DNA of 64,000 nt from positions 186,001-250,000 of the forward strand of contig JAQSEB010000092.1 in NCBI GenBank assembly GCA_030063045.1, written 5' to 3'. The translations under genes and the position numbers were made by a program. Every line of letters starts with the position of its first letter. Within the stretch, counting starts at the first letter, position 1. The notes under the pieces were generated by a model that saw nothing but the letters and a program-made list of their open reading frames with translations, was not told the DNA's origin and ran no database searches. Below, one piece after another: positions 1 through 49,300 of the stretch. Source of the stretch: Pratylenchus scribneri (Eukaryota > Nematoda > Chromadorea > Rhabditida > Pratylenchidae).

Positions 1-218
1 GGACAAATTCTTGTGGTACCACAAAATTCCCTCAAACTTTCTTTTTAATTCCCTTAAAGCTTCATGATATGTTGGGCCTTCAAAATGGTGAAAAAGCTCC
101 ACCGAAATTTGTGAAGAATTTTCTGCATGGAAAAGGATCAATTCAAGCGGCATTGGTTGAATATGTTTTGGAAGTCCGTCAAAGGAAATTCCCCGCCCCA
201 GAGCACAGTTATAATTAA
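1..218 (+). CDS. panB: PanB (3-methyl-2-oxobutanoate hydroxymethyltransferase), 3' end only
   Basis: Bacterial-type enzyme that makes ketopantoate, the first committed step of pantothenate (vitamin B5) synthesis; animals normally lack it. Only the end is in the window. Bases 1-15 encode GQILV, a GT-AG intron covers 16-59, and 60-218 encode the last 52 residues and stop. The tail carries the PanB C-terminal signature: LHDMLGL, then PKFVKNFLHGKGSI, then EVRQRKFPAPEHSYN. The reading frame joins cleanly across the intron, so this is a eukaryotic-style gene and not bacterial contamination. It lies directly upstream of panC on the same strand, about 790 bp away, as in bacterial pan operons. The rest of the gene and its start lie outside the window. 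Recognition is by eye from conserved motifs. Confidence 0.85.
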   Translation, partial: TNSCGTTKFPQTFFLIPLKLHDMLGLQNGEKAPPKFVKNFLHGKGSIQAALVEYVLEVRQRKFPAPEHSYN

Positions 219-1005
219 ATGAGGGAAGAATGCGAGGGAATCTCCACATTATAAGAGCAACACAAAGTATTCATCAATGATCAAAATATTTATTTATTAT
301 CATTTTTTGTAATAAAATTATCAACAATTGAATTATTTCTTTCGTATAAATTTGTCCATTTCCATGAGGAAAATATTTTCATTATTTCTTTTTTCCACCT
401 TCCATCACAATTTTTTAGGCAAAATTTAAGAAAAAGAACGACTGAATCCCATCATTTGAGTTCATAATTCATAAACCATACTTTTGGCCATAGATCAGCA
501 GGGAAGTAATCAATTCAGAAAGGCGATATGCCATTTTAATTATCATTTTTTAATAAATTTATTAACGATTATTTTCTCATTATTTAACCATTTCAAATGC
601 AAAAATATTTTTATTAGCATTTCTTTTACGCCTTTCACATTTTTAAAGCTAGAAGAAATTAGTACGGCCGATTGAGTACCTGAGTCATTCTTTTTGAAAC
701 AGCTCAATAGGGAAGTAACAAATTCGGAAGCTAATTTTCAATTTGAAAGCCCTAAATGTCCTCTAAAAATTGTTTCTTATTTTTTAAAACTTAACAGCTT
801 TTACTCAGAAAATTTGTATTTATTAAATTCAATGGCATATAAAATTTTTGTAATCTGAATTTCAAAAATTTTAAAAAGGTTAAATTGTAGAGGACACTCT
901 GGGTTGAATGGTAAACGCCTTCCCAAATTAGTTATCGCCTTAAAACTATGGCCAAAAGAATGACTATAAAGGAATCAAAAGTCGGCAAATATCGCCAATT
1001 TTAGA
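219..1005. other. panB-panC intergenic spacer with MITE-like sequence
   Basis: No gene seen. AT-rich DNA. It holds one full inverted-repeat element (about 676-965) and a lone half copy near 478-540 of the same family; see the repeat entries. Short reading frames here have no recognisable content. Confidence 0.6.
676..965. repeat. MITE-like long-inverted-repeat element, family 1, copy A
   Basis: The left arm (about 676-775) and right arm (about 885-965) are imperfect reverse complements. The left arm reads roughly 'cattcttttt' then 'aacagctcaatagggaagta' then 'ttgaaagccctaaatgtcct'. The right arm reads 'gaggacactctgggttgaat' to 'tatggccaaaagaatg'. The same arms recur at 2962-3345, 48230-48575, 51695-52012 and 53530-53905, so this is a dispersed non-coding family. 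Confidence 0.65.
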
Positions 1006-2079
1006 ATGTCCTCCTCATCCACCCTACATCTAATTCGAACCATTACTGAATTGCGTGAATTTATTAGGGAAAAGAGGCGAGAAGATGCGAATATTCGGTC
1101 AGTTGAATTTTATGATTTTATGATTTTTATCCAAATTAAAGCATTTCATTTGTCCCAACAATGGGTGCCCTCCATTCTGGCCATTTGGAATTGGTTCGAC
1201 GGGCACGGCACCACACCGTCGAACATCAGCAGGGCAATTTCCTGGTTTTGGTCGCCATTTTTGTTAATCCACTCCAATTTGGGCCCAACGAAGATTTTGA
1301 TCGGTATCCCCGTGCATTGGCCGAGGATATGGCCAAATTGGAGGGATTGGCTGATTGCATTTTTGCCCCAAATTATGAGGAAATGTACAATGAAGGGAAA
1401 GGAGGGCAAATTCTAGTGAATGCAGGAAGAATTGGCCAAATTATTGAGGGCAAAAGTCGGCCAAATTACTTTGATGGGATGCTCACAATTGTGGCAAAAT
1501 TGTTCAATTGCGTTTGCCCTGATTTGGCATTGTTTGGCAAAAAAGATGCCCAACAGGTGTTCAATGGGGTGCAAATTTAAAAATAAAAAAGTTTTTAACC
1601 AAATTAACCAAAAGTAATTAATCCAAATGTCGAATGATTTTTAGCTTTTCGCTGTCCAACAAATGGTCCGCGATTTGAATTTCCCCGTCCAAATTTTGGG
1701 CATCGAAACTCAAAGAGAGCCGGATGGATTGGCCATGTCCAGTCGAAATGTCTATTTGAATGGAGAGGAAAGGAAGGCGGCAACCTGCCTTTGGAAGGCA
1801 TTAAATGGGGCCAAAATTGGAGCAGAAAATGAAGGAATGAATTTGCCGGAGGCAATGAAAAAGGCAATGGAAATATTCGAGAGGGAGAAAATGGCCAAAT
1901 TGGACTATTTAATTGCGGTCGAAAAGAACACATTTATGGAATTGGATGGGCAAAATGAGCGAATGGAATTCAATGGAGAGGCAATTTTGCTGATTGCCGC
2001 CTTCGTCGGCACAACACGGCTAATTGACAATATTGAGCTGAATATTGGTACCGGAAGGAGCATTTTAGATGAATATTAA
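1006..2079 (+). CDS. panC: PanC (pantothenate synthetase), complete, bacterial type
   Basis: Joins pantoate and beta-alanine using ATP to give pantothenate. Three exons are read: 1006-1097, 1142-1556 and 1645-2079. All have GT-AG introns and an unbroken frame, giving 313 residues, slightly longer than typical bacterial PanC (about 280). The hallmarks are in order: [12 protein letters not shown] (HIGH-type motif, residues 35-46); [18 protein letters not shown]; a [19 protein letters not shown] block; FGKKDAQQ spliced to [14 protein letters not shown]; and DGLAMSSRN (the KMSKS-like loop, about residues 196-204). No key motif is missing, so it looks functional. The start ATG at 1006 is the first in frame and gives a plausible N-terminal helix. 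It follows panB on the same strand and converges on the P450 gene, with only 77 bp between the two stop codons. Its origin is most simply explained by transfer from bacteria; introns were gained later. Confidence 0.95.
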
Positions 2080-2155: not shown

Positions 2156-5100
2156 TCAATCCACCAAACGTTGTTCCAATTTCACTGTCACCGAATTTGG
2201 ATTGAGTACAACTTGGCCAGTGAAATTCAATTCAATCTGTAAATAATTAGTCAATTTTCCCCATTCCCTCTCCTTTTAATTCTTGCCTCCGTTTCAGGAC
2301 ATTTGTTCAGTCTGAATCGCCGCAACAAATGGACCAATGCCATTTTCTCCTCCATCAATGCCATTCGCATTCCTATACAAATCCGTGGGCCACCCCCAAA
2401 TGGATAATAGGCGCTGGGCTGCACAAATGATGGGTCAAGCCATCTGCAAATAAATAATTTAAAAATTTTGGCTGGAATTTTTTGGACATTTTTATGATTT
2501 TTAACTGGCAGTTTAAATTCCAAATATGTTATAATGATCGAAATGGCCCATGGTATTTGTGAATTGGAATTTGGAAGCCTAAAGTTTCCCAATTAAGGAC
2601 TTTTGCCTCGTCAAATAATGCCAATTTGGTACTTCATTTTTCCCATACTTTCTATTGCCCATCCACCTCCCCCCATTATGCCCACCTTTCCGGTTTGAAT
2701 TCCTCCGCATCAGGGCCCCAAATGGTCTTATCCCTATGCAATGTCAACAAATCTGGCTTCACGCCCGTTCCCTTCTCCAATTTGATGTTGCCAAGTGTGA
2801 CCGTCTCCGCCGCAATTCGATTGACCACACTAATAAAATAATAAATGTAATTAACATTTCGGAAGAATCAGAATTAAAATTTTCCCATATTGCCCAAATT
2901 TTTCTAAGGATTACAACAAAACTTGAATATGTCTTATAATATAAATGAGAAGAAGAAAACTTACGGTATCCCTTTTGATTGAAATGGAAGGAAAACAAAT
3001 CTTAATTTGCCTATAGCTATGAAATGAAATACCTCTCATTGTCAGCTTTTTTAATATCTTACTCTTACCGTAATTCAACAAGGAAATGATTAATTTAGGT
3101 AAGGGATATACCATTCGAAAGCACTAAAAGTTCTCTAAAAATTGATTTTATTAGTTTTATAAATTAAAATTACCAAAATAAGCGGCCTTTATTAATATTT
3201 TAAACTCAAAGATATGTAATTATTTAGAAAGGTGAATGAATACCACCACAATTTTATGGGGTCACTTTTATAGGACTTTTAGGGCTCGATTGGTATATTA
3301 TCTTCCTTAAGCCGGCTATTTTCTTATTGAGTTATGATATTTTTCGACTCACGATGAAGCAATTGGGCAAAGGCGAAGTGTCTCTTTGATGACGGCATCC
3401 GCATATTTCAGCTGTCCCAATTGATCATAGTTGAGGGCCTCATCCTCTCCTACACCTCCACAAATTGCATCAATTTCTTCCCACAACTTTTGCTGCACTT
3501 CTGGATGCATTACCAAATTGTGCGAAATTATACTCAATGAATTGGCGGTGGTGTCGAATCCGGCCAAAAGGAAGACGAAACAATGCATCACAATTTCCTC
3601 GGTTGTATTCTTCCGTTCAAACTGCGCAAAAAAATAGAAAATTTTGGATAAATTGAATGATTAATTCCGCCGGTTTTGTGTTTTTGCTTAGAATAATTCC
3701 GCCGGTTTTGTGTATTCGCTTAGAATAATTCCACCTGTTTTGTGTTTTCGCTTAGAATAATCCGCCTGTTTTGTGTTTTCGCTTAGAATAATTCCGCCTG
3801 TTTTGTGTATTCGCTTAGAATAATTCCACCTGTTTTGTGTTTTCACTTAGAATAATTCCGCCTCTTTGTGTTTTCGCTTAGAATAATTCCGCCTATTTTG
3901 TGTATTCGCTTAGAATAATTCCACCTGTTTTGTGTTTTCACTTAGAATAATTCCGCCTGTTTGTGTTTTCGCTTAGAATAATTCCGCCTGTTTTGTGTTT
4001 TCGCTTAGAATAATTCGGCCTGTTTTGTGTTTTCACTTAGAATAATTCCGCCTGTTTGTGTTTTCGCTTAGAATAATTCCGCCTGTTTTGTGTTTTCGCT
4101 TAGAATAATCCGCCTGTTTTGTGTTTTCGCTTAGAATAATTCCACCTGTTTTGTGTTTTCGCTTAGAATAATCCGCCTGTTTTGTGTTTTCGCTTAGAAT
4201 AATTCGGCCTGTTTTGTGTTTTCACTTAGAATAATTCCGCCTGTTTGTGTTTTCGCTTAGAATAATTCCGCCTGTTTGTGTTTTCGCTTAGAATAATTCC
4301 GCCTATTTTGTGTTTTCGCTTAGAATAATTCGGCCTGTTTTGTGTTTTCACTTAGAATAATTCCGCCTGTTTGTGTTTTCGCTTAGAATAATTCCGTTTT
4401 GTGTTTTCGCTTAGAATAATTCCGCCTATTTTGTGTTTTCGCTTAGAATAATTCCGCCTATTTTGTGTTTTCGCTTAGAATAATTCTGCCTATTTTGTTT
4501 TTTCGCTTAGAATAATTCCGCCTGTTTGTTTTAATCAAATAAATCGGCCGCTGATTATTTTTTAAAATTATCTTTTTATATGACATTTAGAGCTTTGCAT
4601 AGCCAATTGCTTTTCTGAATTGGTTACTTTCTTATTGAACGGCTAAAAAAACGGACTAAGATAAGTCAATAGGCACATTTTAAAAATTCTGTTTCGAAAA
4701 ATCGCAACTAATTTATTTACCTTTTCTGCTTTATTGTATGCCCTGTTCTCGTCAGTCAATTTCACGTCGGATTCCACCTCCAGAAACAAGTCAATAAAAT
4801 CGACAAATTTTCGTCCATTTTCCTCATTTTTGCCAACATTTCCTTCCACTTTTTGTCGTTTCCTTTCCTCCACTGCATTTCTGCATTGTTGCAACATTTC
4901 AGAGACAGGATCGCCCAATAAAGGGCCAACAACCCGCAGAAATGGGGACAAAAAATTTCGGCCAAACCAGGGGAAAATTTGCGCATAATAGTCCCAAAAA
5001 TGATTGTTGAATTGGTTGAAACATTTTTGTGCCAATTTTAAATAAGGCGATCGAAATTGGAGTGTACCCTTTTGACCCATTGCCACACGAGAAATTACGT

Positions 5101-6122
5101 CGAAGGTCATTTCCGTGAAAAAGCTGCAAACAAAATTATTATGTCAAATGAATGCCCAGAAATTTGTTTATGAAACGCCCAACTTATTGCCATTTATAAT
5201 AAATAATTCATCAAAGACTGACTGAACCAATTTTAATGTTTTTGTTATTAAATTAAAGAATGAACTTTTGACTATCAAATGCATAAAATTTATTTAAATT
5301 GGTTCAAAAATGATGAAGTTGTGCTCAAAAAACTTTTAAAACAACTTCGGATGGTTTAGCGAAATATTGAGTGATTTTTTGGGCACAATTTCATCATTTC
5401 TGTACCAATTTAATTCAAATTATTTCCATGGATAGCCAAGAATGTTCTCTTTAATTTGTTAACAAATAATTCAAAATTACTTCAGTTTTTGATGAATTAT
5501 TTTAGATGGTGTAAAGTTGGCCTCTGGCTAAAAGTTGGGCTGATTAATGTTATATTTACGTATGCATGTTGATCGGTTTCCCCTGCAGGCGTGCCTCATC
5601 CAAAAAATTCATTGTCACTCGAATGGAGTCATCCAAAATTGGCATCACTCTTTTCAGATTGGCCAAAGAAAATGCGGGATTAGCTATGGTGCGCAGCCTT
5701 TTCCACCGCTTTCCTTGGGCCGCCACCAAATGGATCAATTCCGACTTGTCCACATCGCCAATCAAAGGATTAGTCTATGATGGGTAATAAATTATTAAAT
5801 TAAATTGATTTGGGACCATTCTGCCGTGAAAATATTCAAATTTGTCGATCAACAATTGACGGATCATTTCCGGATCACTTATCACCAATACTTTTTGCCA
5901 GCAACCTTCTTGGATGCCGTAGACTTTTCCAAATTGTTTTGTCCATTTTTGAAGTTGAAAAACTGCCGGTTTTTCGCCGAAAACATTGTCCAAATTTCCC
6001 TTCAACAAAACACCATCGGGCCCAGGGATTCCTCGGTTTTGCCAAAATTTTTGTTGACGAAGAGTAAACCAATAGAAAGCGAAAATTGCGGCAAAAATAA
6101 AAAGGAGGATTTGAAGGAACAT
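2156..6122 (-). CDS. Cytochrome P450 (CYP3-clan-like)
   Basis: Microsomal haem monooxygenase. The start ATG at 6122 gives an N-terminal membrane anchor (FLQILLFIFAAIFAFYWF) followed by the proline hinge GIPGPDG. Exons then run down the minus strand: membrane/N-terminal domain (6122 to about 5820), 5774-5554, 5125 to about 4721, 3622 to about 3349, about 2832 to 2665, about 2443 to 2293, and a last exon ending 2156. P450 signatures are all present: I-helix AGFDTTA, K-helix KETLRL (ExxR), FKPER, and haem loop YPFGGGPRICIG with the cysteine ligand. Length is about 500 residues, normal for the family. The intron before the final exon appears to be GC-AG (GAG|GCAAG). A 1.1-kb intron is filled with the 32-bp minisatellite. 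Sequence resembles nematode CYP13/CYP25-type enzymes, but family placement is by impression. Confidence 0.92.
2962..3345. repeat. MITE-like family 1, copy B (in P450 intron)
   Basis: Left arm has 'cttaccgtaattcaacaagg', then 'aagggatataccattcgaaa' and 'gcactaaaagttctct'. Right arm has 'ttttataggacttttagggc' and 'tattgagttatgatattttt'. It shares an outer stretch 'ttgcctatagctatgaaat' with copy E at 53530. It lies wholly in a P450 intron. Confidence 0.55.
3660..4533 (+). repeat. Minisatellite array 1 (31-32-bp unit, about 27 copies)
   Basis: Tandem repeat of a unit reading 'ttccgcctgttttgtg' then 'ttttcgcttagaataa' (32 bp). Many units lose one T (31 bp), and some carry 'cggcctg', 'ccacctg' or 'ttcact' variants. 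It occupies almost all of a P450 intron (about 3623-4720). The same unit in the same orientation recurs at 49131-49576 and 56537-57080. Confidence 0.97.
5160..5525. repeat. MITE-like family 2, copy 1 (in P450 intron)
   Basis: Long imperfect palindrome. The left arm contains 'gttattaaattaaagaatga', then 'cttttgactatcaaatgc' and 'atttaaattggttcaaaa'. The right arm contains the reverse complements ('gtaccaatttaattcaaa', 'ggatagccaagaatgttctc' and 'tttaatttgttaacaaat'). Both arms are also found at 50460-50790 in a Toll intron. Confidence 0.6.
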
Positions 6123-7473
6123 TTCTGAAGGAATTTGAGCTTTTTTGACTAATGAGAGATTATAGTTTCCAAACAAAAATATTTGCTGATATTTATAATA
6201 AAAGTACAGTCAGGTAAAAAGTTTAGAATTAGTTCAAATTTTGTGCCCAAAATGCGCCCAATGTAGTCAATGTAGTCTAATCTCCCTTCGAATTACCCAC
6301 CCAATTTGTTTTAATTTCACAGACTACGCGTAAATCACGATAATGAAAAAACCTCCATATCAATTTTAATTTATCTTAATTTGAATTAGGAAGGATGCGC
6401 AGAATCATTTTCAAACTATTTGATAGTTTAAATATGGATCATTCTAAGATAAAAAAATGAGCAAATTTCATTTATTATATAGGGTAAATATATTTGTTAT
6501 TCAATATCAATATGCGGTGGAAAATGTTATCAAAAAGGAAAATGAGTTGTTTATATTTTGGACATATTTGATAATAATTTTGTTCACTCTGAGAAAAATG
6601 ATAAGAAAAAGAAGGAATATTCTGGGAAATGAATTGAATATATTTTTGATTAGATGAAATTGAAATGATAAATAATTTGGGCAAGGAAACATGTATTAAC
6701 AATGTTCGATATTCGATATAAATTAATTGAACCAATATGAACCAATTGATGTGGCCAAATATAAGGACTGTGGCCACTGTGAATAAAGTAGAATTCGGCA
6801 AAAAGGATTTTGAGAAGAATTTTCTCTGAGAATATGAAAAATCACCTAGGGTGATTATTGAAAAAATAATAAGTGATTTTTTATATCCTCGGCCAATTAT
6901 ATATTTGTTAATGAGAATTAGTTGTACCATTCATATAAAATGAAAGAAGGAGGAAAATTCCTTCCCTTACAGTACAAATTGCCCTCAGGCATCAATCACC
7001 TGCCACCTCTTTCTCAAATGATGGCGCTACCGTATGCCCGCAATAGCATAAAAAGTGGCTTTTTTGATGGCCGATGAAAACAAAAATGAAATTTCTTCAA
7101 ATATTTGAAAATTTTCAAGTAAATTTAATCCGACATTATCCAATTTATGCAACAATTGATTATTATTTTCGAGCAATATAAAAAAGAATATTTTCCATTC
7201 ACATTTATGCTCCAATCATAGAATCCACCAAATTCGATACTATTATTTTCCCATATTTTCCATCATTTTGCCCTTTCTTTAAGGGGCATATCCATTCAAT
7301 TTACCCATCAGCTGCCTTTTTTGGCCCAAATCGATTTGGCCCATTTTGGCCAAATCCAGCAATGCCCGCATAACCCCACCTCTTTTTTTGGCCCTATACA
7401 ATGCGATGGCTTCACCCAAATTGGCTCATTTCTCAAATCCAAATTCATTTCCCTTAATAAAATTCCATTGAAA
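6123..7473. other. Intergenic region between P450 and the acidic-protein gene
   Basis: The divergent 5' ends of two genes face each other here. I see AT-rich DNA with no convincing exon. A 151-codon minus-strand frame at 6475-6930 is made of AT-rich hydrophobic codons and is not supported. Any promoters of the P450 and acidic-protein genes must lie here, but I can point to no specific element. Confidence 0.5.
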
Positions 7474-10431
7474 ATGCCTCCTCCATTTTTATTAGTGTTT
7501 TCCACTTTCTTCTGCTGTTTTGGCCTCTTTTTTGTTGCGGTTTCCTCCGTTGAATTGCCACCATTCCAACGAATTCCCGGTAATTTTATATGGATATTAA
7601 TATTTAATTTGTCGAAAAATGTATTGAATTTTTAAGAAAGGTCTAAAAAATATGTATAGAATGTCAAAATAATTAATTTTAATGGTTTAAGAGTTTGTCC
7701 TACATCCTTAAGCCATATACCCAATTGGATGAAGCTGGTCAAAATGCATTGTGGTATATAATTTGTTATGGCTTTTTGCTCAAAATTAAAGGGTATTAAA
7801 TGGTTTAAACCAATTTTGGTTTAATGGTTCAAAACTAAATTAGAATTGGTTAAGCTAAGCTAAAACTCAATCAAAATGAATAATGTGTATTGGCGAAATT
7901 TATCAATTAAAATAAGATTTATATGGCTAGAATTAAATTTTTGAAATATTTTCGGTAATTTCAATGTTTTTTTCGGCAAATTAAACAATTTCCTTATTTA
8001 AATTGTATTTCATTTATTAAATTGGGAAGATGCCGAAGTGGAAGAGGACATGAAAGCCGTGGAACGTGCAATCCAATCCCCTTGGGTGGAACAATTCCCT
8101 TCGGGCGTTAAAAGATTGGCCACAAAGAGGGAAAGTTTTTCGCTTACGGACGCACAGAAGGCACTATTTAGTTGGCATTGGGAATTGGAAACAATTCAAA
8201 GGGAGAAGCCAACGAGGCCAAAACAATTCGATTTGGAAATGTTCGCGGATGCCCTGAAAATAATGCTGGAAATGGATAAGGAAAAGAAGGAAGTCCTCAT
8301 TTGGCCACATAAATTGAGGGAATGGATGGAGGCGCAAAGGATGAAGGGAGGGGAGGAGAAGAAAATGCCAATGGCAGAAGAAGAGGCCAAAAAATCGGCA
8401 CAATTGACCAATTTGGTTGGCAATAAAGAGGGAGAAGAAGGGGCAGCTGATGAAGCAGAAGAAGAAGGACAATGTTCGGAGGCGGATAAACCAGCTGAAA
8501 TTGTTTTGGCCGAACAGCAGGCCAAAATGGACAATGCCATTGCATCCAATCAAACAATGGTGGCACAACAAATGCCAATGCCATCGATGGCAACAATTGT
8601 TGATCAACAGCCACCATCGATGGCTCCATCACCAATTCAATCGGCAATTCAGCAGGGAAATTATGTGGTGAATGGAGTGGATGATTTTGGGCGGCCAGTG
8701 GTACTAATTTTGCCAAACAATTTTGGGGGAAATGGATTGGAAGCGGCTAAATTGGGTGAAACAATCCAAATCCAAGGAGAAGAATTGCCGCAGAATGTTG
8801 CCCAAACCCAACAAAAACAGCCAATTATGTTGAATGATGGGTCGAAAATTTATGTAGTGGATGAGGGACAGGAAATGGCCGGAAATAATGGAAAAGAGGG
8901 AAATGAAGTTGGCCAGCAGGAAAAAGTGGCTGACCGTGAGGAATGTAATGAAGCTGATGAGACTAAAAATGAGGAGAAAAAGGACGAAGAAGAAGAAGAA
9001 ATTGGAAAGGACGAAGAAGAAGAAGAAATTGATGGAAATAAAGAAGGAAAGGAAGGCAATTTGGATGATGAAAATGAAAAAGAAGAAGGGAAAAAGGAGG
9101 GAAAATTGAATGAAGGAGAGGAAGAAGCAAAGAAGGAAGGGAAGGATGATGAAGAAGAAGAAGGAAAGAAGGGGGATGATGAAGAAGAGAAAACGGAGGA
9201 GGATGAAAAAGCGATGAAGAATGAAAAAAGTTCGGAAGAAGGAGGAAATGAGAGAACAATCTTTGAAGCGATCCGTGGCCAAAAGAAGAATGAGGACAAT
9301 GTAAAGGAAAAGGAAAATAGAAATGATGAAGGACAAATTTTGATCATTGATTGGGCAAAAGGAAGAGATAAACAGGAAGATGATGAAGACGATGGAGATA
9401 ATCTGGCGGCTATTGGCAAAAGATTGGGTGCAATGAAAATGATCAAAGTTGGCGAGGAGGCGAATTCAACGGAAGAAGAAGAGGAAGAAAAAGTGCCAAA
9501 ATCGAATAGTGCCAATGCCACTGTGGTGGAAGTGGAAGTGATCAAACCGGATGAAATGAAGGAGAAACCGGGTTTTCTGACCATTTTGTCCGATATGCTA
9601 TTTGCTCGCAAAAAACGTGATGTCATTGTGATGGAGGCTGAATCTGGTGCCGAATCGCCGCCATCAATGCCATCGTCTCCAATTCCTACCATAATTTTGG
9701 AAGGCACAAAATTGGAGGAACAAAAACAATTGCCTTCAAATGAGCCATTCAAAATGCCAATTGCCCCAGCGGGTGTGTTTGCAAATGAAACAATTTCGGC
9801 AAATGATGGGGAAAATGAGGAAGCGGAGGAGAAAGAGGAGTGCTGCGAAGAAGTGGAAAAGAAAAATGTTGAAAATGATGGTAAAACCATAAAAATGGTA
9901 CGAAGCTTCAAAGGACAGATGGATTTAGGGAAAGGTCAATTTGGGATTGAGGCCAAATGGGAAATGACGATGAATGCGCCATCCAAACAGCAGAAACATG
10001 TGGAAGAGGTGAAGGAAGAAACCGGTGAAGAAGGGATTCAGGAAAAGGAAACTAATCAGCTAAATCAGAAGGAGGAGGAGGATGAGAATGAAGAGGATGA
10101 ATCGCGAAAAGTGGAGGAAAAACAACCAAAAAATGAGGAAAAAGTCATCGAAGTAAAAGTTGGCGATGAAAAGGCACAATTAATTGAATATTTGGAATGG
10201 TATTTAGTCAAAACTGGTGGTCGAAAACGAGACGAAAAGTTGGCCTATGTTCTCTATTCAGAGCTGCAATATTGGCTGGCAAAACAAATTGAGAAAAAAT
10301 GTATTGCTTGCAACGGAAATGGCATGAACAAAATTTTGGGTGAGGCATATTTGCAGGCAAAATGGTCGAAAACAATTGAAAAATTGGCAATATTGACAGA
10401 ATGGATTGGAAAGGATTTCCGAAAGAAATGA
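7474..10431 (+). CDS. Secreted Glu-rich acidic protein with dibasic sites, function unknown
   Basis: Two exons, 7474-7579 and 8030-10431, joined in frame (phase 1), give about 835 residues. Exon 1 encodes a clear signal peptide (MPPPFLLVFSTFFCCFGLFF, then VAVSSVE), so the product should enter the secretory route. The N-terminal third has a non-repetitive block (SLTDAQKALFSWHWELE; WPHKLREWMEAQR). A Q/P-rich segment follows, then a very long Glu/Lys/Asp low-complexity tract (about residues 330-460), and last a compact C-terminal block of about 90 residues (LIEYLEWYLVKTGGRKRDEK ... YVLYSELQYWLAKQIEKK, with a CIAC pair). Dibasic runs ARKKRD and GGRKRD look like prohormone-convertase sites. I do not recognise a family. 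A granin-like secretory-granule protein, a cuticle or gland secretion, or a parasitism protein are all possible. Confidence 0.8.
7735..7870. repeat. Dispersed repeat, family 3, copy 1 (in intron of the acidic-protein gene)
   Basis: Contains 'tggtatataatttgttatgg', then 'aaattaaagggtattaaa', 'ccaattttggtttaatgg' and 'ttcaaaactaaattagaatt'. The same series of blocks occurs at 63375-63500, about 55 kb away in the same orientation. Non-coding. Confidence 0.65.
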
Positions 10432-26577: not shown

Positions 26578-29500
26578 ATGCTCCTTGAGGAAGTTCTTTC
26601 GTCCAATTGCCCTCCACCTTCCCCAACTCCACTTTTGGCTTTCAATGGCGACTTGCCATCATGCAGCAGTCGGCCAAGTAGCCCTCAATCAAGCCAAGAC
26701 CAACCTCAATCCAACAATCAAAAGTCTTATAAAATGGGCTATTTCGGCGCAACCAGGTAATTTTGTGCCAATTTGGCAGGGCCAAACCCATCCATAATCT
26801 CATCAGTTATGTGATTGGAAACATTATCGGCTCCGGCATATTCATTTCGCCCTCAACTATTATTCGATACACGGATTCGGCAGGACTTTCGCTGATAATT
26901 TGGGTTTTGGGTGCTTTGATTGCATTCCTCGGCTCACTTTGCTACATTGAACTGGGAACTAGCATTCGGGAAGGTGAAGCACTCATCATTTTTGGCCTTC
27001 ATTTTGTTATTTTAAAGCTGGCTGCGATTTTGCATACATTTGCTACGTAAAATGGTACAATTTCCTTGTAAATTCATAATTTGTGGAAAAATTTAAGGTA
27101 TTCGGTTGCCTTTTCTTTCATGTGGGTTTCAGGTGAAAAACAATGGTGTTTTTTTTTTCTAATTTTCCAATATCAATCTTTAGTCCTAATGACTTATCCG
27201 GCAACAATTGCCATCATTGCTGAAACTTTTGGACAATATTTGCTTGAAGGCAAGTCAAAATATTCTCTTTTGTCTTTCGAATTAAAATGTTGCGTTTCCT
27301 AAATGTAATTGAACAAAACTTAACTAAAATTTTTGGACAACTTAGTCTTTAATTAAATCTTCAGGAATTTACTCCTCTCTCTCATAAAAAATAATCCCCC
27401 TCGAATTAAAATATTATTTTCATCTTCTAAGGACTTCGACAAACATACGCCATCGATCCACAATGGGCTCCGGTGGCACAAAAATTTTTCGGAATTGTGC
27501 TTTTATGTGAGTTTAATAAAGAACCTTTTTTATTCAAAATAATTAAAAAAAAAAGAAAATGAATTAGGAAAATGTGGGGGGAAAAGAAAAAAAAGGCACA
27601 AATAATGATTAATAATAAGCAGAAAACCACATATTTTAAATTCCAATAATATCATTTATATTTGTTGCTCTTCATCCTCATAATTCTTCTAATTTATTAT
27701 GCAAATTCCACAATTTAATTTTCCTCATCAATTTTGAATCCCTTTGCTCGCATCCAATCATCATCCAAGAATTTCGTCCTGAAAATTCAACGCATTGAGA
27801 ATATCCCTTTTCCCATCACTTACATATAATTTCGAATACTGTCCGGTGCCACCACAACCACACGTTTGCATTTCTCTCCTCCCAATTCCTTGGCCACTTG
27901 AATTGCTGCCCAAACATTTGCACCGGTGGATCCGCCGCAAAGAAGGCCCTCTTCTCGGATTAATTGGCGGGCAATTTTGAATGAATTTTGATCGTTGGTT
28001 TTGACCCATTTATCCACGAGGGAACGATCCAGAACGGCGGGAACAAAATCTGTTAAATGATTTAAATATGTGAAAATATTAATTGATGAAAGGACCAACC
28101 GTAGCCAACTCCTTCGACTTCATATGCGGCCGTCTCCTTACAGCTTGGATTTGCCAAAATTGAGCCCTCCGGATCAGTGGCGATAATCTGAAAAGGAAAT
28201 GAATATGAAAAATGTTCAAATTGAATTCACCTTGCAGCCGGGCACTTTTTCCCGCAATTTCTTTGCAATTCCACTGACAGTACCGCCGGTGCCCGCACCA
28301 ATGACCACTGCGTCCAATTGTCCATCACAGGCCCAGATTATTTCCTCTGCTGTTCCTTCATAATGCGCCAGCGGATTTCCATCATTTCGATACTAAAAAA
28401 TTGCAATCATTACTCCTTTTGAGGCCAAACTAAAATGCCTATCCCAAAACCACTATAGAGAAAAATTTAGGATAACGTTTAGGCTTTTACGTGCTCGAAT
28501 CATGGGTCTTAATTAGTACTAAGTTTAGAAGGTTTCGCTCAATTTCCATTCCCTTTTCTTCGTTGCGATTTTGGGTAAAGATATTTTGGGCCAATTTCCC
28601 AACCTGGTCAAGAATAATTGCACCGGGAATTTCGCGTTGGAGTCGAAGTGCAACACCTTTAAAAAAATAACATTAAATCTAAACCAAAATTCCTAAAAAA
28701 ACTAACCAATATGTGAGTCCGGGTCATTGTGCGCCTTTTCCGTTGGAGTTCGAACAATTTGGGCGCCCAATGAACGTAGGACAAATTCCTTCTCTTTGCT
28801 CATTTTTTCGGGCATCACAATTATGCAGCGGTAGCCTCGGATTGCGGCCATCATTGCCAGTCCAATGCCCGTATTTCCCGAGGTCGGCTCAATAATTGTG
28901 CTTTCGCCCACTTTCAGCAATCCTTTTGCTTCGGCCATTTCCACCATTTTTCGGGCAATTCGATCTTTGACCGATCCGCCAGCATTCAGGAATTCACATT
29001 TGACCAGTATTTCAGCCTCCACGCCGTATTTCTTTGGCAGCTTTCGAAGACGGACCAGCGGTGTGTTGCCAATTGCTTCGGAAATGTCCTTCAGAATTCG
29101 GCATCGTTTTGGTGGGCAATACGGTGCATTGGGCCAAGGAGTGGGCGCAATTTGAAAATCTTGTTCCGGTTTATTCTCAGGATTGTAGACGTCGGCGATT
29201 GAAAATGTCTTCTCTGGGCGAATTTGTTTTTCTGCCGGTGGAGGTTCCATGAATTTGTTTGAAAGCTGAAAAAATCAGTGTGAAATAATTTTCAAAACCA
29301 AAAAACCAACCATCCATTTGTCGTCGATGAATTTTGTGAGATAATTGCGCACTCCATCCGGCAATATGAACACACAATTTTCGCCCTTTTTCAATTGTTT
29401 TGCTGCCCGAAGTGCGCCAGTGAGAATTGCGCCCGATGAACCGCCACTCAAAATGCCCTCCTTCAAATGGAGTTTTCGGGCCATTTGGAATGTGTCCGTG

Positions 29501-32500
29501 TCGCTCGTCTTTTGCCAAAAATCAATATCGTTCATGTCCAACACGGATGGCACAAAATCGTAGCCAATTCCCTCGACCAAATAATGTCCATGTTCTCCTT
29601 TGCTTCCTTCATTTTCATTGCCTCCGGCCGACAAAACTGAGCCAAATGGATCAACGCCAACAATCTACAAATGAATGTAAATGAATAGAAAGTCCAATTT
29701 TTGGGTACCTTGCATCCTGGACAACGTTTGTGAATTTTGCGTGAAATTCCCGTAATTGAACCTCCCGTTCCGACGCCAACGACCACCATTTGAACATTCC
29801 CATCCAATGCATCCAAAATTTCCTCTGCTGTTCCCTCATAATGCGCAAGTGGATTGGCACAATTTTTGTACTAAAAAACAAAAGTTTAAAAATCAAAATA
29901 AAATTTACCTGATCTAAAACGACTGAATTTGGAATTTCCTTCCTCATCTTGAACGCTTTTCCCACGTGCGATTGATCACTGTCGTAGGGGGCATCATCCT
30001 TGGTACGCACAATTTTGGCACCCAATGCTTTCAGTGTGACTTCCTTCTCTTTGCTCATTTTTTCGGGCATCACAATGATACACGGATAACCTAAAAAATG
30101 GATTTTAAATTATTCAAAAATTTGGAACAAAAATTGTGACCTTTAACAGCGCAAGTCAATGCCAATCCAATGCCCGTATTCCCAGATGTTGGTTCGATCA
30201 CTGTCATCCCAGGTTTCAGTCGACCAGTTTGTTCTGCTGCTTCCACCATTCGCAATGCAATCCTGTCCTTTACTGAACCACCGGAATTCAAAAATTCGCA
30301 TTTGCCATCTAAAAAAGCAATTGAAATATGAATTTATTGAGAAAAACAAACAAATGTTGCATTCAATCCCATATTCGGCTGGAATTTTGTTTAATTTGAC
30401 CTGAAGAATTGTTTTTGTTTAAATTGGTTTATTCAAAAATAATTACGAGAGGTGTTGATCCAATTCCTTCGAGAATGTTGTCAAAAATTTTCGGCTTTTC
30501 TTTACTGAAAAATTCATAATAATTAATCAATATTTTTAATGTATAAAACTCACGGATATTTGGCAAATGGATAACGCCCAAAAGAATCTTCAATCGAATC
30601 CTCGTGCCAATGAACGCGTTTTTTTGCTTCTGGATCCCAGGGACGAACATCATCGGCCAATTCCTCCTTTTGCTGTGCTGTCGATGACATTTTTATTTTC
30701 TTTAAACTCTTAAAAAATAATTTGTTAACGCTTTTTTTGTGTTGGTCATTCATCGAAAAATAAATAGGAAAAAAAATAAATTTTTATCATTATTTTTATC
30801 TTGCTGAACTCACTGTTCAATTTTACTATTTAATCGTTACATTATCTATTCTATTCTTGAATTCCGACCTAATTCAACACAAAATGATTAAAAGAATGAA
30901 TGGAGAAGAAAGCGCCCCGAACTCTGCTCGATATAAGTTTGGAATGGAAATGGAAACTTTGATTGATGAGCTGCAGGGGTAAATGGGAATAAAACCAGTA
31001 ATAAAATGGGAAAGGAAGTGATCAACCCAAAAGAAATTAATTGGAAAGTATAGGGAATTGATCTAGTCCAAGGAGTTCTAGATGAATAAATTGGTGAATT
31101 CGAATTCATAAATCAAAAATACAGAAATAATTTAATTTCTTAGAGAACAAAGATTGTAAAAGAATGATGAAATTAAAATTGCAAATTGCAAATAATTTTT
31201 TTTAATTGTTGGGTTGGGTCCTAGATCCGTTCCGAATGATTACGAAATGAGAAGCAACAAGCAAAGCAAATCGCAATCCAATATCCAATTCGCAAATCAA
31301 TAAATTTAGGGAAATAGGATGAATTGTCATTTATGCGAATAAAAATGGGAATTATCAAAATGCCAATCTTCCCAGTACCATATACCGAACATCAATTTTA
31401 GGGCTAATCACATGGATGAATTTCTTCGCTTTAGGCAAATTTGCCGCTCGTTTCCAAATTGCTGCTACAATCGCAAAATTGGTTATTAATTAATTATTAA
31501 TTTTTTGTAATTTTAATATTTTTTCAGTTGGCTTGTTCATTAATAATTTTAACTGGATTCTATTATTGGTTCTTCTTGGATTGGAATGAAGGATTGCGCG
31601 AACCAATGGCAAAATCAAGGTAGATTAATTTTAAACAAAAATTACTAAAAAAATTATATCATTAGGTGGAATGCTGGCGATTTGATGATGGGCCTTTATG
31701 GAGGCTTATATGCTGTTGGTCTTTAACATTTTTTTAAAATTCAAAACCAAATTTTAGTACAGCGGTTGGGACATTTTGAACTATGGAACTGATGAAATTC
31801 AAAGGCCGAAAAGAAATGCACCATTGGCTTTATTGAGTGGAATTTTAATTGTTTTCTTGGTATTTTCGAGTTTTTTAATCAACTAAACTTTAATTTAAGG
31901 TTTATTTTTGCATCAATATTGCCTATTTTGCTGTGCTTGACGTGGAAACAATGAAAACGAGCAATGCGGTGGCAGCGGTGAGTCAAAAAATGAAATGGAA
32001 ATATAAAAATTGTTTATTTTAGTTATTCAGCCAACGCACGCTGGGCAGATTCAGCGAAGCAATTCCATTTCTCATTGGAGTTCTACTCATTGGTTCATTA
32101 AATTCAAATTTATTTTGTGGCTCTCGCTATATGTATGCGGCAGCAAAACAAGGTAAATTAAATAAATGATCCATCAATTCACATTTCTCATCTTAATCGA
32201 ATATTTTCCCTCAGGACATTTGCCAACTTGCTTCAGTTGCGTCAATTCCCCCAATGAAAGTCCACGGGTTGCCGTTTTTGCTCAATCCGCGTTGGCAGTT
32301 GCCATTTCATTTGTTGGCGATTTGGATGGTAATTGATTTTAATTAAAAAAATGTGGAATAACAATAGCGCATTAGTGGGATAAAAATAATTAACCCGAAG
32401 AGGATTAGAACCCATGACCTAAATACAGGAAAATTGAAGAGTTCGCCCTCTAGGCTAAAGAATTCTTTCTGGGAAGTATTAATTTTTTTTATTTTCAGCT

Positions 32501-42800: not shown

Positions 42801-45800
42801 AAAAAATTTAATTAAATTTGAAGAATCGATCGAAATATATTTTTGTTTAAAAATTGAATCGAAAAATATTTGGTCCATTAATTGAAATAATGTTTTGTGA
42901 TTTTGATGAATGCGTACAATTTGAATATGTAAATGTGTGTTTGTGGCATGAATATACCCGTCTTTGGTTGATTTTGATGGTTTTAAATTGGGCAACAATT
43001 TGATTTTTTTTGTGTTAAAAGTCTGTGGAGTTTACAAAATGAGTAGGGAGCGGATTTTTAAAATTTATCAGATTTAATGAGATTTGAGCATTTATTCAAT
43101 TTTCTGACGTAATTGCAATTTTTGCGATCTGAAAATCCGCTCCCAAAAAATGAGAATACAATTTTACCACGTTTTATATTGAGTGACTGACTGGCATGGA
43201 AGTGTTTGGAAATGAGAGAAAAAATTGCAAAATGAGAATTGGGATGGAAAAGGCAAAATAGAAAATGTGAAAAATGTTGCTTAAGAGCACTTCATGATTT
43301 ATTGGGGCCTATTTTGGGGTTAGACAAAATCACTTGGAGCCGGCGGAATTTGTCCATATTCCGAATAAATATGCGATTGTGATGTTTCACTGCTGGGTGA
43401 CGGATATCTGATTGGTGGGATGTCGCGTAGAAGCCTCTTCAAATCCTCCCAAAATTGGGGGCTATCCCTTCGTAAATATCCATCCCTGAGGATGATTGAC
43501 CCAATTTCAATTGGCAAATTGGCCAAATCCGTTTCATCCATGTCGTAGCCAACAATGAAGAGGATTCGCCTCGATTCATTCTGCTTTTTGTCAAGCTTGA
43601 TGCTGCTCGTCAATTGGGGTCTGTTCCAATCCAATCGCATGAATTCTCTGGACAAATACACAACCAGCATTCGGCTCTCTCCAATCAGCTTGATCAGCTC
43701 ATTACTGATATAGACTGGGTCCTCTCGATAATATCCGCATTGATGGAGGTAGCAAAGAATGTAGCCGTAATTGAATTCCAAAGATCTGAAAATATAAAAT
43801 TAAAATAATAAAATGGATAGAAATTAATTTCACTAACTTTTCATGTCGAAAAATCAAAATTTTTCGGCGGCCTTAAATTTGGCCAAATTTGGCTCATTTT
43901 AAGCCCTCTCCTACCTTAAGATTAACCCCAATCAAAAATGGCCAAATAATATGGGCCAAGCAAAATGTTTATTTTTCGAAAATTCAACGATTTTTACCAG
44001 TAAATTTCTCTACTAAAAATGAATGCACCTGCAAAACTCCATGATAGCTTTCTCGTCATTCTTCGTATAGCATATGAAAATGTCGCATTCATTCGGCAGA
44101 ACATGTTGACTGCTTAATTCCGTCGGAATTGGACTTCCTCCATTCACTGTCGGTGAATGAGTTGATGAGAGGGAATTGTTGTTGGTTGGAAGCAGTAATC
44201 CATTTTTCTCCTCTTGATTTCGGCCTTTTTCCTTCACATTTGTGAACCATTGTGGTCGAAATGCGAACATCAACAAAATTGGGATGATCAGCAGGAGAAT
44301 GGCCATAAGGAATGCGAACATCAATGTGTCATAGGGACCACCGAATCCAAAAATTCCATTGGTTTGAGCAACACAAATTGTTCTATAAATATTCGATAAA
44401 TTCACTAATTAGGCACAAATGCCAACCTATTTTCGTCACTCAAAAATTCCAACATTAGCATTGTGAAAAGGTCATCGCCCTCATTTGGCAATCGCAATGA
44501 GAGCACAGTTGTATCATTGGTTTTTTGTGCCCGAGTCACATTCTCCACACATTTTAGCCATTCCGAATCCAATACACGCCATCGATTCCGGGCCAACCAA
44601 TGTGGAATATCAAAACGTCCATTTGGGTAGCAATCGCATCGAAACGGGTTTCCTGCCAATGTTATTTTCCGTAATTGATCACCCGAAGCATTCTTTAAAT
44701 TTAATTTAAAAAAAATAAATTTGAAATAAAATGTACCCTCAAATATATTGGCAATTCCTCGAGCGAATTACCTTCCAAATGTAATTCCTCCAAACGAGGT
44801 ATCATTTCAAGGAGGTTGACATTTTTATTCCGAATTCGATTGTTGGCCAAATTCAGACGCCTAATATTTTGGATTGAGAAGCCTTCATCCCCATTGATTT
44901 GTTCCAATTGATTATTTGCCAAATGAAGAGACTAAAAAAATATAAAATTAATTTTAAAATTAAATCAAAAACTAATTATAAATTATTTTAAATATTTTTT
45001 CAGTGAAAGAAGGAATGAGTTCAGTAATGGAACGACTCTCAAATGAATTGAAGATTGAATTGAATTCAGTGGTCAATTCCATCGAATACAGCAATAAAGG
45101 AATCTCTGTAAAATACATAAAACAAGAAACTCATCAAGAAACAACTAAAACTGAAATCCACACGTTAAAGGTGACAAAAACTATTAATCAAAATAATTTG
45201 TATTAATTAAATTTAGGCCGATGCCGTCCTTTGCACAGTTCCTTTGGGTGTTCTAAAAAAGTCGCCATTTTTATCCGAAGCTGATGAACCAGATTCCGGT
45301 GCAATTCGCTTTCAACCATCATTGCCTGGTCCAACATAATTATTTATTAATAACAAAATTATTTCAGCCTGGAAACGGGAGGCAATCGCCAGACTTGGCT
45401 TCGGCAATCTCAATAAACTAATCCTATTCTTCGAAAAACCCTTTTGGGACGTCAACAAATCCTCTTTTGGACGGCTCAATGATACATCGTGAGTTTTTTT
45501 ATTGTTAGGAAAATTGTAAGGGATTGTGGGAATTTTCTTTAATTTATCATTAAAATTCCAATAAATATTTTAGCACTGCACGAGGTGAATTGTTTCTTTT
45601 CTTCACAAACGGTGATTTGCCAATTCTGATTGGATTATTTGCCGGTGAAGCCGCAGCCGTCACAAGTCAACTTGAAGAGGAAATAATTGTGCAGCGAGGA
45701 ATGAAGGCATTGTATTCCATTTTTGGCAATATTTGTCCCGCAAAGGTGAAGCATAACAAATTTTAATTCATTTTGATTCCATTTTTTCAGCCAAAACATC

Positions 45801-46333: not shown

Positions 46334-49300
46334 AGTGGATGGAGGAGAAATCAAAACAAATTTTTGGATTTTACTTTTGCATTTTTTACTTTTTTATTTG
46401 TATAAAGATTAAAAATAAATATTCTTTCTCCCATTTTCTACATCAAATTCTCCTTTTTATGCCTGAGAGGCAATTGGAGATGGATAAGAAAGAAAAGGGC
46501 TCCCTTTCCCTTCTATTGGTACAGTAATCATCACTCTTTGGAAAAGAAAAGGCTCCCTTCTATTGGTACAGTAATCATCACTCTTTGGAAAAGAAAAGGC
46601 TCCCTTCTATTGGTACAGTAATCATCACTCTTTGGAAAAGAAAAGGCTCCCTTCTATTGGTACAGTAATCATCACTCTTTGGAAAAGAAAAGGCTCCCTT
46701 CTATTGGTACAGTAATCACCACTCTTTGGAAAAGATAAGGCCCCCTTTTCCTATGCGACAAAAGAGGCCGCCATTCCTATTACAGTATTCAATTTCCCCT
46801 TTCAATCACTGCATTCCATGGGATATTTATTTTAAGTTTTAACAATAATTTAATTGATTTAATTTAACAATAATTTAAATGAAATTTCCCCACCTTTAAA
46901 TTAATCAATGTGTTGAATGCTTTTGGCTGAATTTTCTTGACTTTGGACGAATTGATGTGCAATTCAATGAGGCGATCTCTGCCCGCAAAAACATTTTCCC
47001 TTAGCAAAGGCAAATTCAAGTCGGAAAGGAGAATATGTGAAGCCATCATTGGCAACAATTCAAGCTGATCATTGCTGCTACCGTCATTTTCTCCACCGCC
47101 AATCCGTCCCTTGCATTTGACCACATTTGTGATGGAATGCAAATCGCGGAAACATTCACAGCCTTTTGGGCATTTTGATTTGCAATCGCAGTCACGGAAG
47201 AAGCAACAAACGCATCCGGCCTCACAAAATTGGGTGTAAGGGCAAAGGAAATCGGTGACCTTAAAAAGATGAAATTAGAGAGTTATTTTGTTATTTCGGG
47301 AGACCTCCGTTTCGATTATTGCCTTCCGTTTTCCATTCAATGGGGTCAAACAATCCACTTCAAGAATGTCTTGAACACCACCACCTCCGCCAGTTGTTGT
47401 TGTTGAATTCGCCACTCTCCAGGGAATGCTCGCATTCAGCAGCCATCCCATTTCACAATTGCATTCTAGCGAATTCCCTGAAAATTAATAATTAAATGTA
47501 TCAAAAATTCTCATTCAGAATTAAATTATTGAGAATAATGGAAATAATTCTTGTTTTCGGATAAATGTAATTTTTCAGTAAAATTATAAATATTACTTAT
47601 TTAATTCAAAAATTTTTTTGAGTTTTTCTATAGGACATTTATTGCTTTCAAATGATATATCGCTTTCCCTAAATTGGTTATTGTCTCGTTGAGCTATGGC
47701 CAAAAGTAAAAGACCAGAGATCCGAATCGGATGTATAGAATTCCCATTCAACTCACCGGCAATCCACATTCGCCCAAATGGGGCATTTGCCTCGATTGCC
47801 ACTTCATATAATTCCCTTGGAATTGTGCGCAATCGATTCGAACGAAGATTGACCGATTTGAGTTGGCCCATTCCATGGAAAGTGTTATTGGCCAATGTGG
47901 CCAATTCATTTTCACTCACATCCAATTCCTCTAATCCAAGTGGCAGCGAATCAGCCGAAAGACGTCCAATTCGATTTCCTTTCAACTGAAAATGACTTTA
48001 TTTTTTATAATTAAGGGAAAATTTGCCTCAAGTTTTCTCAATTTTCTTGCGCCAATTCCTTCCTCTCCATCATCCAATCCATCCTCCAAAGTGCCAATTC
48101 GTTCAATTCGATTCCAATTTGCAGAAATTTCCAACAATTCTGGCGGAAATTTTGTCCAATTCAACTGTAAAAATTTCAATCATTTTAATTTATTTCGCCG
48201 AAAAAGAGAACATTCGGTTCGGCTATTTCAGTAACCTGGGCCATTCTTTTGGCCTAAACTCAACAAGAAAGTAATCAATTTAGGAAGGCGAAATACCATT
48301 CGAAAGCCATAAAAGTTTTCTTAAAAGTGGCTTAATTAAATTTTTGAAAATTTAAATCAACTTCTAAAATAATCGGTTTTTCCTCGAAAAATCCTGGTTT
48401 ATTAAACTTAAAGGCATAAATTTTTATATTTGTTAGATTTCATGAAATTAAACAAAGCCAAAATATTGAGGACACTTTAGGATTTCGAATGGTCTATCCC
48501 CTTCCTTACTTGGCTATTGCCTCTCTGAGCTATAGCCAAAAGAATGGCTCAAGTACAGAATGGAATACTGTAACAGTAACCCTGCATCATTTTCTCACCT
48601 CTTCCAATGCATTGCCCGTCAAATTCACAGTCCTCAATGTTTTCAAAAGAGTCAAAGATGGGCCAAGATTGGTGAGTTGATTTTGTGCCAAATCGATCCT
48701 CTTTAATTTTGGGCATTTCTCAAATGCGTCCGGACTGATTGTTTGAATTCGATTGGCCCTGAGGCTCAATTCTTGCAAATGATCGCATTCCATGAACACA
48801 AAACTTTCCACTGATTCCAGCGAATTTTGGCTAAGATCCAATCTGGCCAAATGTGGCAATTTGTTCAGTACAAATTTGTAGGCTTTTCTATGAAGTTGAA
48901 AAAATATAATTAATTTTTAAAGTTAATTTACGAAATTTTATTGCCCGAAAGATCCATTCGCCGCACTCGAGTCAATCGGCCAACGGCCATTGGTAATTCA
49001 GTCAATTCATTTTGATTCTGAAAAAAATATAAAATTAAAAATAGGAAATATTTCATTTGTGTAAAAAAAGATTGTAGGGGTTGGAAATTTATCTTACTTA
49101 GACTCGCAAACCTTAAATTCAATGTAGATTATTTCCTCCTATTTTGTGTTTTCGCTTAAAATAATTCCGCCTGTTTTGTGTTTTCGCTTAGAATAATTCC
49201 GCCTATTTTGTATTTTCGCTTAGAATAATTCCTCCTGTTTTGTGTTTTCGCTTAGAATAATTCCGCCTGTTTTGTGTTTCGCTTAGAATAATTCCGCCTA

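Follow-up and report, generated by a model that had tools for sequence, protein, structure and literature searches.

The locus described here raises the question of how a nematode, Pratylenchus scribneri, came to carry two bacterial-type genes of vitamin B5 synthesis, panB and panC, side by side, on one strand and in the order in which bacteria keep them. The pair lies at the left edge of the window, by which we mean the whole stretch of 64,000 nucleotides that was analysed (contig JAQSEB010000092.1, positions 186,001 to 250,000; the contig is called C92 below). A sequence-only reading of the window had described a linked pair separated by about 0.8 kb and interrupted by short GT-AG introns, and had proposed that a single operon fragment brought in both genes. 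The first base of the window falls within panB, and the rest of this gene was taken from the sequence to the left (L009, corresponding to C92:182001-190500; a window position equals the L009 position minus 4000). The features of the locus are as follows, with window positions unless L009 is given.

L009 2799-2978, 3025-3192, 3568-3760 and 3810-4015, + strand: panB exons 1-4, of which exons 1-3 and most of exon 4 lie left of the window
1..15, + strand: end of panB exon 4 (spliced protein matches Pfam Pantoate_transf, E 4.8e-99)
16..59, + strand: panB intron 4, 44 bp, GT..AG, as in the copies on contigs C7 and C32
60..218, + strand: panB exon 5 with stop codon
219..1005, strand not applicable: spacer between panB and panC, 787 bp
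293..957, both orientations among copies: dispersed repeat occupying most of the spacer
1006..1097, + strand: panC exon 1 with start codon
1098..1141, + strand: panC intron 1, 44 bp, GT..AG
1142..1556, + strand: panC exon 2
1557..1644, + strand: panC intron 2, 88 bp, GT..AG
1645..2079, + strand: panC exon 3 with stop codon (spliced protein matches Pfam Pantoate_ligase, E 1.1e-91)
2251..3660, - strand: exon pieces of a cytochrome P450 gene, three open frames matching PF00067; context, outside the pair

The left-hand sequence completed panB as a gene of five exons with a spliced protein of 301 aa, while panC, downstream on the + strand, has three exons and a spliced protein of 313 aa. PanB matched the Pantoate_transf profile (PF02548) over positions 1-258 of 259 and PanC the Pantoate_ligase profile (PF02569) over positions 2-267 of 268. 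As both matches are nearly full-length and their E values tiny, the identity of the two proteins is far beyond chance. All six introns of the pair are GT..AG and the measured spacer is 787 bp, so that the pair, its spacing and its introns proved to be as first described. For joint transcription with a spliced leader, as in nematode operons, the sequence offers only possible acceptor sites ahead of the two start codons.

The pair has pieces of eukaryotic genes around it. A GFO_IDH_MocA exon lies upstream and the P450 exons downstream (Pfam match in 4 of 7 open frames), and of another 20 open frames scanned in the window four had a match, namely Med12, TIR and two PALP pieces. The TIR match is weak (E 5.4e-05; open frame 43323-43799, - strand), and one of the two pieces of the PALP family of pyridoxal-phosphate enzymes (28705-30109, - strand) falls under the Pfam cut-off. 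The window further contains a partly repetitive open frame of 809 aa (8002-10428, + strand) that is free of Pfam matches, and, in the region of the P450 gene, a 32-bp minisatellite with 27.5 repeat units (3662-4527), whose motif recurs near 57 kb.

A search of the worm's own assembly (227,248,964 bases in 276 contigs; published as 276 contigs and 227.24 Mb, with 65.4% BUSCO completeness and 41.4% duplicated BUSCOs, PMC10138993) showed that the pair is present three times. Genome-wide, the PF02548 profile had 12 matches to exons, four each on C92, C7 and C32, and panC adjoins the 3' side of panB on the same strand at all three loci, with spacers of 787 bp (C92), 795 bp (C7) and 764 bp (C32). 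When exon boundaries were projected from C92 onto C7 and C32 by alignment, 12/12 introns were GT..AG, making 18/18 over the three copies; several introns differ in length between copies, and exon lengths agree save for one 15-base in-frame difference in the C7 panC. C32 aligns over 4.5 kb (93.6%) with a stretch that runs from the last panB exon through the P450 region, and C7 over 4.7 kb (89.9%) with one that starts at panB exon 3 and likewise runs through this region, which bears out the contiguity of the pan locus with the P450 gene. The alignment of C32 (L011) to C92 ends about 1.3 kb upstream of panB; C7 retains the GFO_IDH_MocA flank.

The copies are diverged (dS 0.15-0.26) and were therefore not produced by assembly. 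Reading is open in panB at all three loci, with dN/dS of 0.080, 0.090 and 0.101 between pairs, and in panC at two, C92 and C32 (dN/dS 0.163; 0.198 and 0.211 for the pairs that include C7). The C7 panC (L010, reverse complement 5581-6681) has two premature stops beside an open panB, which marks this one copy of panC as a gene in decay. Overall, the pair is real and subject to purifying selection, and two of the three loci have both genes fully open.

The origin of each gene was approached through bacterial homologues drawn from plasmid records and from a genome-contig scan with the PanB alignment, of whose 595 matches the best 80 were used, complemented by even samples of 299 Bacillota genomes, 249 Pseudomonadota genomes and 61 genomes from the order that includes Dyella, which we take to be the Xanthomonadales. 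The best PanB match was 61% identical in the Xanthomonadales sample and 52% in the Bacillota sample. For PanC, the best Bacillota match was 52% identical, the best-scoring Pseudomonadota match 47%, and the actinobacterium Nonomuraea 46% (tblastn), so that by raw score the top matches were Bacillota rather than Actinobacteria. Among 158 loci with both genes (blastp), the maxima were 59.5% for PanB and 42.4% for PanC in Xanthomonadales, and 50.7% and 50.0% in Bacillota.

Trees were built at two levels of care from bacterial rows together with the P. scribneri proteins. Quick trees took lengths of 220-420 aa and kept one sequence per set alike at 72% (PanB) or 66% (PanC); careful trees took lengths of 230-360, kept one per set alike at 75% (PanB) or 80% (PanC), and applied group quotas. 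In the quick PanB tree (94 rows), the nematode PanB grouped with Dyella, Arenimonas and two more proteobacterial rows (SH-aLRT 97). The careful tree (59 rows) placed it inside the beta/gammaproteobacteria (100/97) and, within these, with the Xanthomonadales (84/80, unstarred, in a bootstrap that had not fully settled). Forcing PanB together with the 20 non-proteobacterial rows was rejected by the AU test (p value 0.0184), and forcing it with the PanB of M. tuberculosis gave a p value of 0.019. On these placements, the origin of PanB is firm at the beta/gamma level.

PanC went elsewhere. It grouped with three actinobacteria in the quick tree (101 rows; SH-aLRT 95), with five in a careful tree of 53 rows (91/85), and with six in a careful tree of 66 rows (97/94), from which L106 and L108 were left out and in which Xanthomonadales were limited to 22 rows. 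The sampled Xanthomonadales PanCs formed one group apart from the nematode PanC (100/99 with 8 rows; 86/73 with 22 rows). The actinobacterial rows number six only (five from plasmid-collection records and one from the PDB), long branches (0.77-0.99) lead to the nematode sequences, and the amino-acid composition of the C92 PanC is unusual in the 66-row data set. The placement of PanC with the Actinobacteria is supported, less firmly than the PanB side. A joint donor among the Bacillota, of which L082 had a fair score on both proteins, was rejected, since in the trees PanB leaves the Bacillota side and PanC falls with the Actinobacteria.

A comparison free of trees gave a further view of the two genes. 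Where a bacterium has both genes, the closeness of its PanB to a given query goes hand in hand with that of its PanC, and we therefore ranked 119 loci, picked by PanB alone, by the similarity of each protein to the nematode pair. The rank correlation was -0.23, compared to a median of 0.66 and a minimum of 0.29 for bacterial queries, none of which (0/119) was as low. The ten loci closest to the nematode PanB held PanC ranks of 26 to 117 out of 119. With control queries on the same list, the corresponding PanC ranks were 1-33 of 118 for a Xanthomonadales locus (L202) and 1-26 for a Bacillota locus (L142); a gammaproteobacterial control (L036) was less clean, with ranks of 1-102. An earlier version with 158 loci had given rho -0.42 (0/158 as low), a value that is biased because many of its loci had been picked by their score to the nematode PanB or PanC, which is why the comparison was repeated with 119 loci.

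We consider two separate acquisitions, joined later, to be the best reading of the whole locus, with a probability of roughly 0.7. In this scenario, there were likely two transfers, with a xanthomonad-like gammaproteobacterium as the donor of panB and an actinobacterium as that of panC, the tree placements identifying the donors to group level. The two genes were probably joined inside the nematode genome after transfer, and a dispersed repeat possibly helped. Besides the repeat in the spacer, a related copy lies directly upstream of panB (L009 2453-2762), 36 bases before its start codon, and the repeat flanks panB at all three loci; it occupies seven merged places in the window. This suggests a route by which the two genes may have come together. 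The other copies in the window are found at 3075-3295, 4550-4674, 47625-47735, 48151-48561, 51708-52022 and 53597-53908. The linked pair would then have been copied to three places in the genome, where purifying selection has since kept panB open at every one and panC at two.

The original proposal, that one pan operon fragment brought both genes and was intronised later, now appears unlikely, also in a form modelled on the whitefly Bemisia tabaci in which a single donor is assumed and the conflict between trees is put down to long branches. It would account for the strand and order of the pair, which are those of 166/173 bacterial loci (panB first, same strand), an arrangement that chance would give to one adjacent pair in four, and it has a reported precedent in Bemisia (PMC5157087). 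The donor trees on which the proposal had been staked did come out with unrelated clades for the two genes, although two constraints on PanC withstood the AU test, one that tied it to all 23 beta/gamma rows (p value 0.321) and one that tied it to 8 Xanthomonadales rows in the smaller set (p value 0.0627). Against a single donor, a position with the 22 Xanthomonadales rows of the larger set was rejected for PanC (p value 0.0303), a position outside the proteobacteria was rejected for PanB (p value 0.018), and the similarity profiles of the two proteins disagree, as described above. Moreover, panC follows immediately after panB in 28/30 Xanthomonadales loci (the 30 best by PanB), and an operon fragment of that source should therefore have delivered a xanthomonad panC. 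Joint arrival was thus not upheld, with PanB among the beta/gammaproteobacteria, nearest to the Xanthomonadales, and PanC among the Actinobacteria.

A single donor bacterium that itself held a mosaic pair, a xanthomonad-like panB beside an actinobacterial-like panC, would explain the linkage as well as both tree positions, but it seems improbable to us because the PanCs of those 28 of 30 loci are only 36-42% identical to the nematode PanC, and because the Xanthomonadales PanCs, sampled from 61 genomes, group apart from it. Bacterial contamination, a frequent source of bacterial-type genes in animal assemblies, or misassembly can be dismissed for practical purposes, because the three diverged copies share their intron sites and lie on contigs of 0.71, 1.97 and 4.11 Mb, because the GC of the coding sequences is 43-48%, and because P450, Med12, TIR and GFO_IDH_MocA pieces surround the pair.

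All nine checked nucleotide- and substrate-binding residues of PanC are kept in C92 and C32, in line with the claim that its catalytic motifs are intact. Of six residues checked in PanB, five that never vary among 191 bacterial sequences are present in each of the three copies; the metal-binding and active-site roles of these residues we take to be those known from E. coli PanB, and the roles of the PanC residues are likewise assumed. At the sixth, the conserved KLE glutamate, however, all three copies carry a four-residue insertion (around residues 143-146; exon L009 3568-3760) that occurs in 0/191 bacterial sequences, so that PanB activity is not certain. As predicted from their sequences, PanB would make ketopantoate from alpha-ketoisovalerate and PanC would join pantoate to beta-alanine, and the pair would cover the first and the last step of vitamin B5 synthesis without the middle one.

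The middle step, the reduction of ketopantoate to pantoate, likely depends on an unrelated nematode reductase or on supply by the plant host. DUF2520 proteins can reduce ketopantoate, and in bacterial loci L014, L199 and L201 DUF2520 adjoins panB or panC; beta-alanine could be obtained from pyrimidine breakdown. The P. scribneri genome gave no match to ApbA (PF02558) or ApbA_C (PF08546) (controls positive in 14/14 and 8/14 genomes), to KARI_C (PF01450) or DUF2520 (PF10728) (14/14 and 2/14), or to Asp_decarbox for panD (8/14). These absences weigh little because the assembly is only 65.4% BUSCO-complete. The vitamin self-sufficiency read into the window is nevertheless not borne out in this assembly, where the searches for panD and for a reductase of the panE, ilvC or DUF2520 type came back empty.

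That nematodes carry panC genes acquired from bacteria is well established (PMC9582021, PMC4901422, PMC3511272, PMC5664137). In clade 12, the reported genes of Heterodera schachtii (Hs-panc; PMC9582021), Globodera (PMC4901422) and Meloidogyne (PMC3511272) are likewise bacterial-type, intron-bearing and of actinobacterial affinity, a trait that the P. scribneri PanC shares in both careful trees. Hs-panc1 of H. schachtii complements an E. coli panC mutant, and the vitamin B5 route is described there as split, with the precursors made by the plant and only the last step by the worm (PMC9582021). H. schachtii is reported with the PANC step only, in two adjacent panC copies (PMC9582021), whereas P. 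scribneri has panC beside panB. Longidorus elongatus (clade 2) also has a nematode PanC-type pantoate ligase from bacteria, as P. scribneri does, but that protein is Burkholderia-like and was therefore reported as an independent acquisition; the table lines available from that report list no PanB domain (PMC5664137).

Both genes together are known from arthropods. In Bemisia tabaci, both genes are bacterial, have introns and are reported without panE, for which the ilvC of the symbiont was proposed to fill in (PMC5157087). The Bemisia genes are described as Pseudomonas-allied, co-transferred and fused (PMC5157087), while those of P. scribneri are separate, with a 787-bp spacer and trees that lead to two bacterial groups, although they share with a co-transferred pair of the Bemisia type that they are adjacent, on the same strand and with panB first at all three loci. 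Plant-feeding mites (Aculops lycopersici and tetranychid spider mites) likewise acquired panB and panC, and Aculops reportedly had another panB donor than the spider mites (PMC7738191). The Aculops genes, which belong to an arthropod lineage, are described beside different host genes and not as a linked pair (PMC7738191). For a nematode panB, or for a linked pair from two donors, we found no earlier report in the open-licence literature, as far as its available text goes, and the words 'pantothenate' and 'horizontal' are absent from the available text of the P. scribneri genome paper (PMC10138993).

On balance, we lean towards seeing the locus as a two-gene vitamin B5 cluster built by the animal from parts of two bacterial phyla, in which a xanthomonad panB would have been set beside an older actinobacterial panC, restoring the operon order, with an unrelated nematode reductase or the plant in place of the middle enzyme. 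Nematodes thereby join mites and the whitefly among the plant feeders that gained panB. In a nematode that has panB too, the split between plant and worm would move to a single reduction step, and the plant gene depended on would be another one. If the two-donor reading is true, functionally linked genes from different bacteria became neighbours in an animal genome, and their clustering would have come about after transfer rather than by it.
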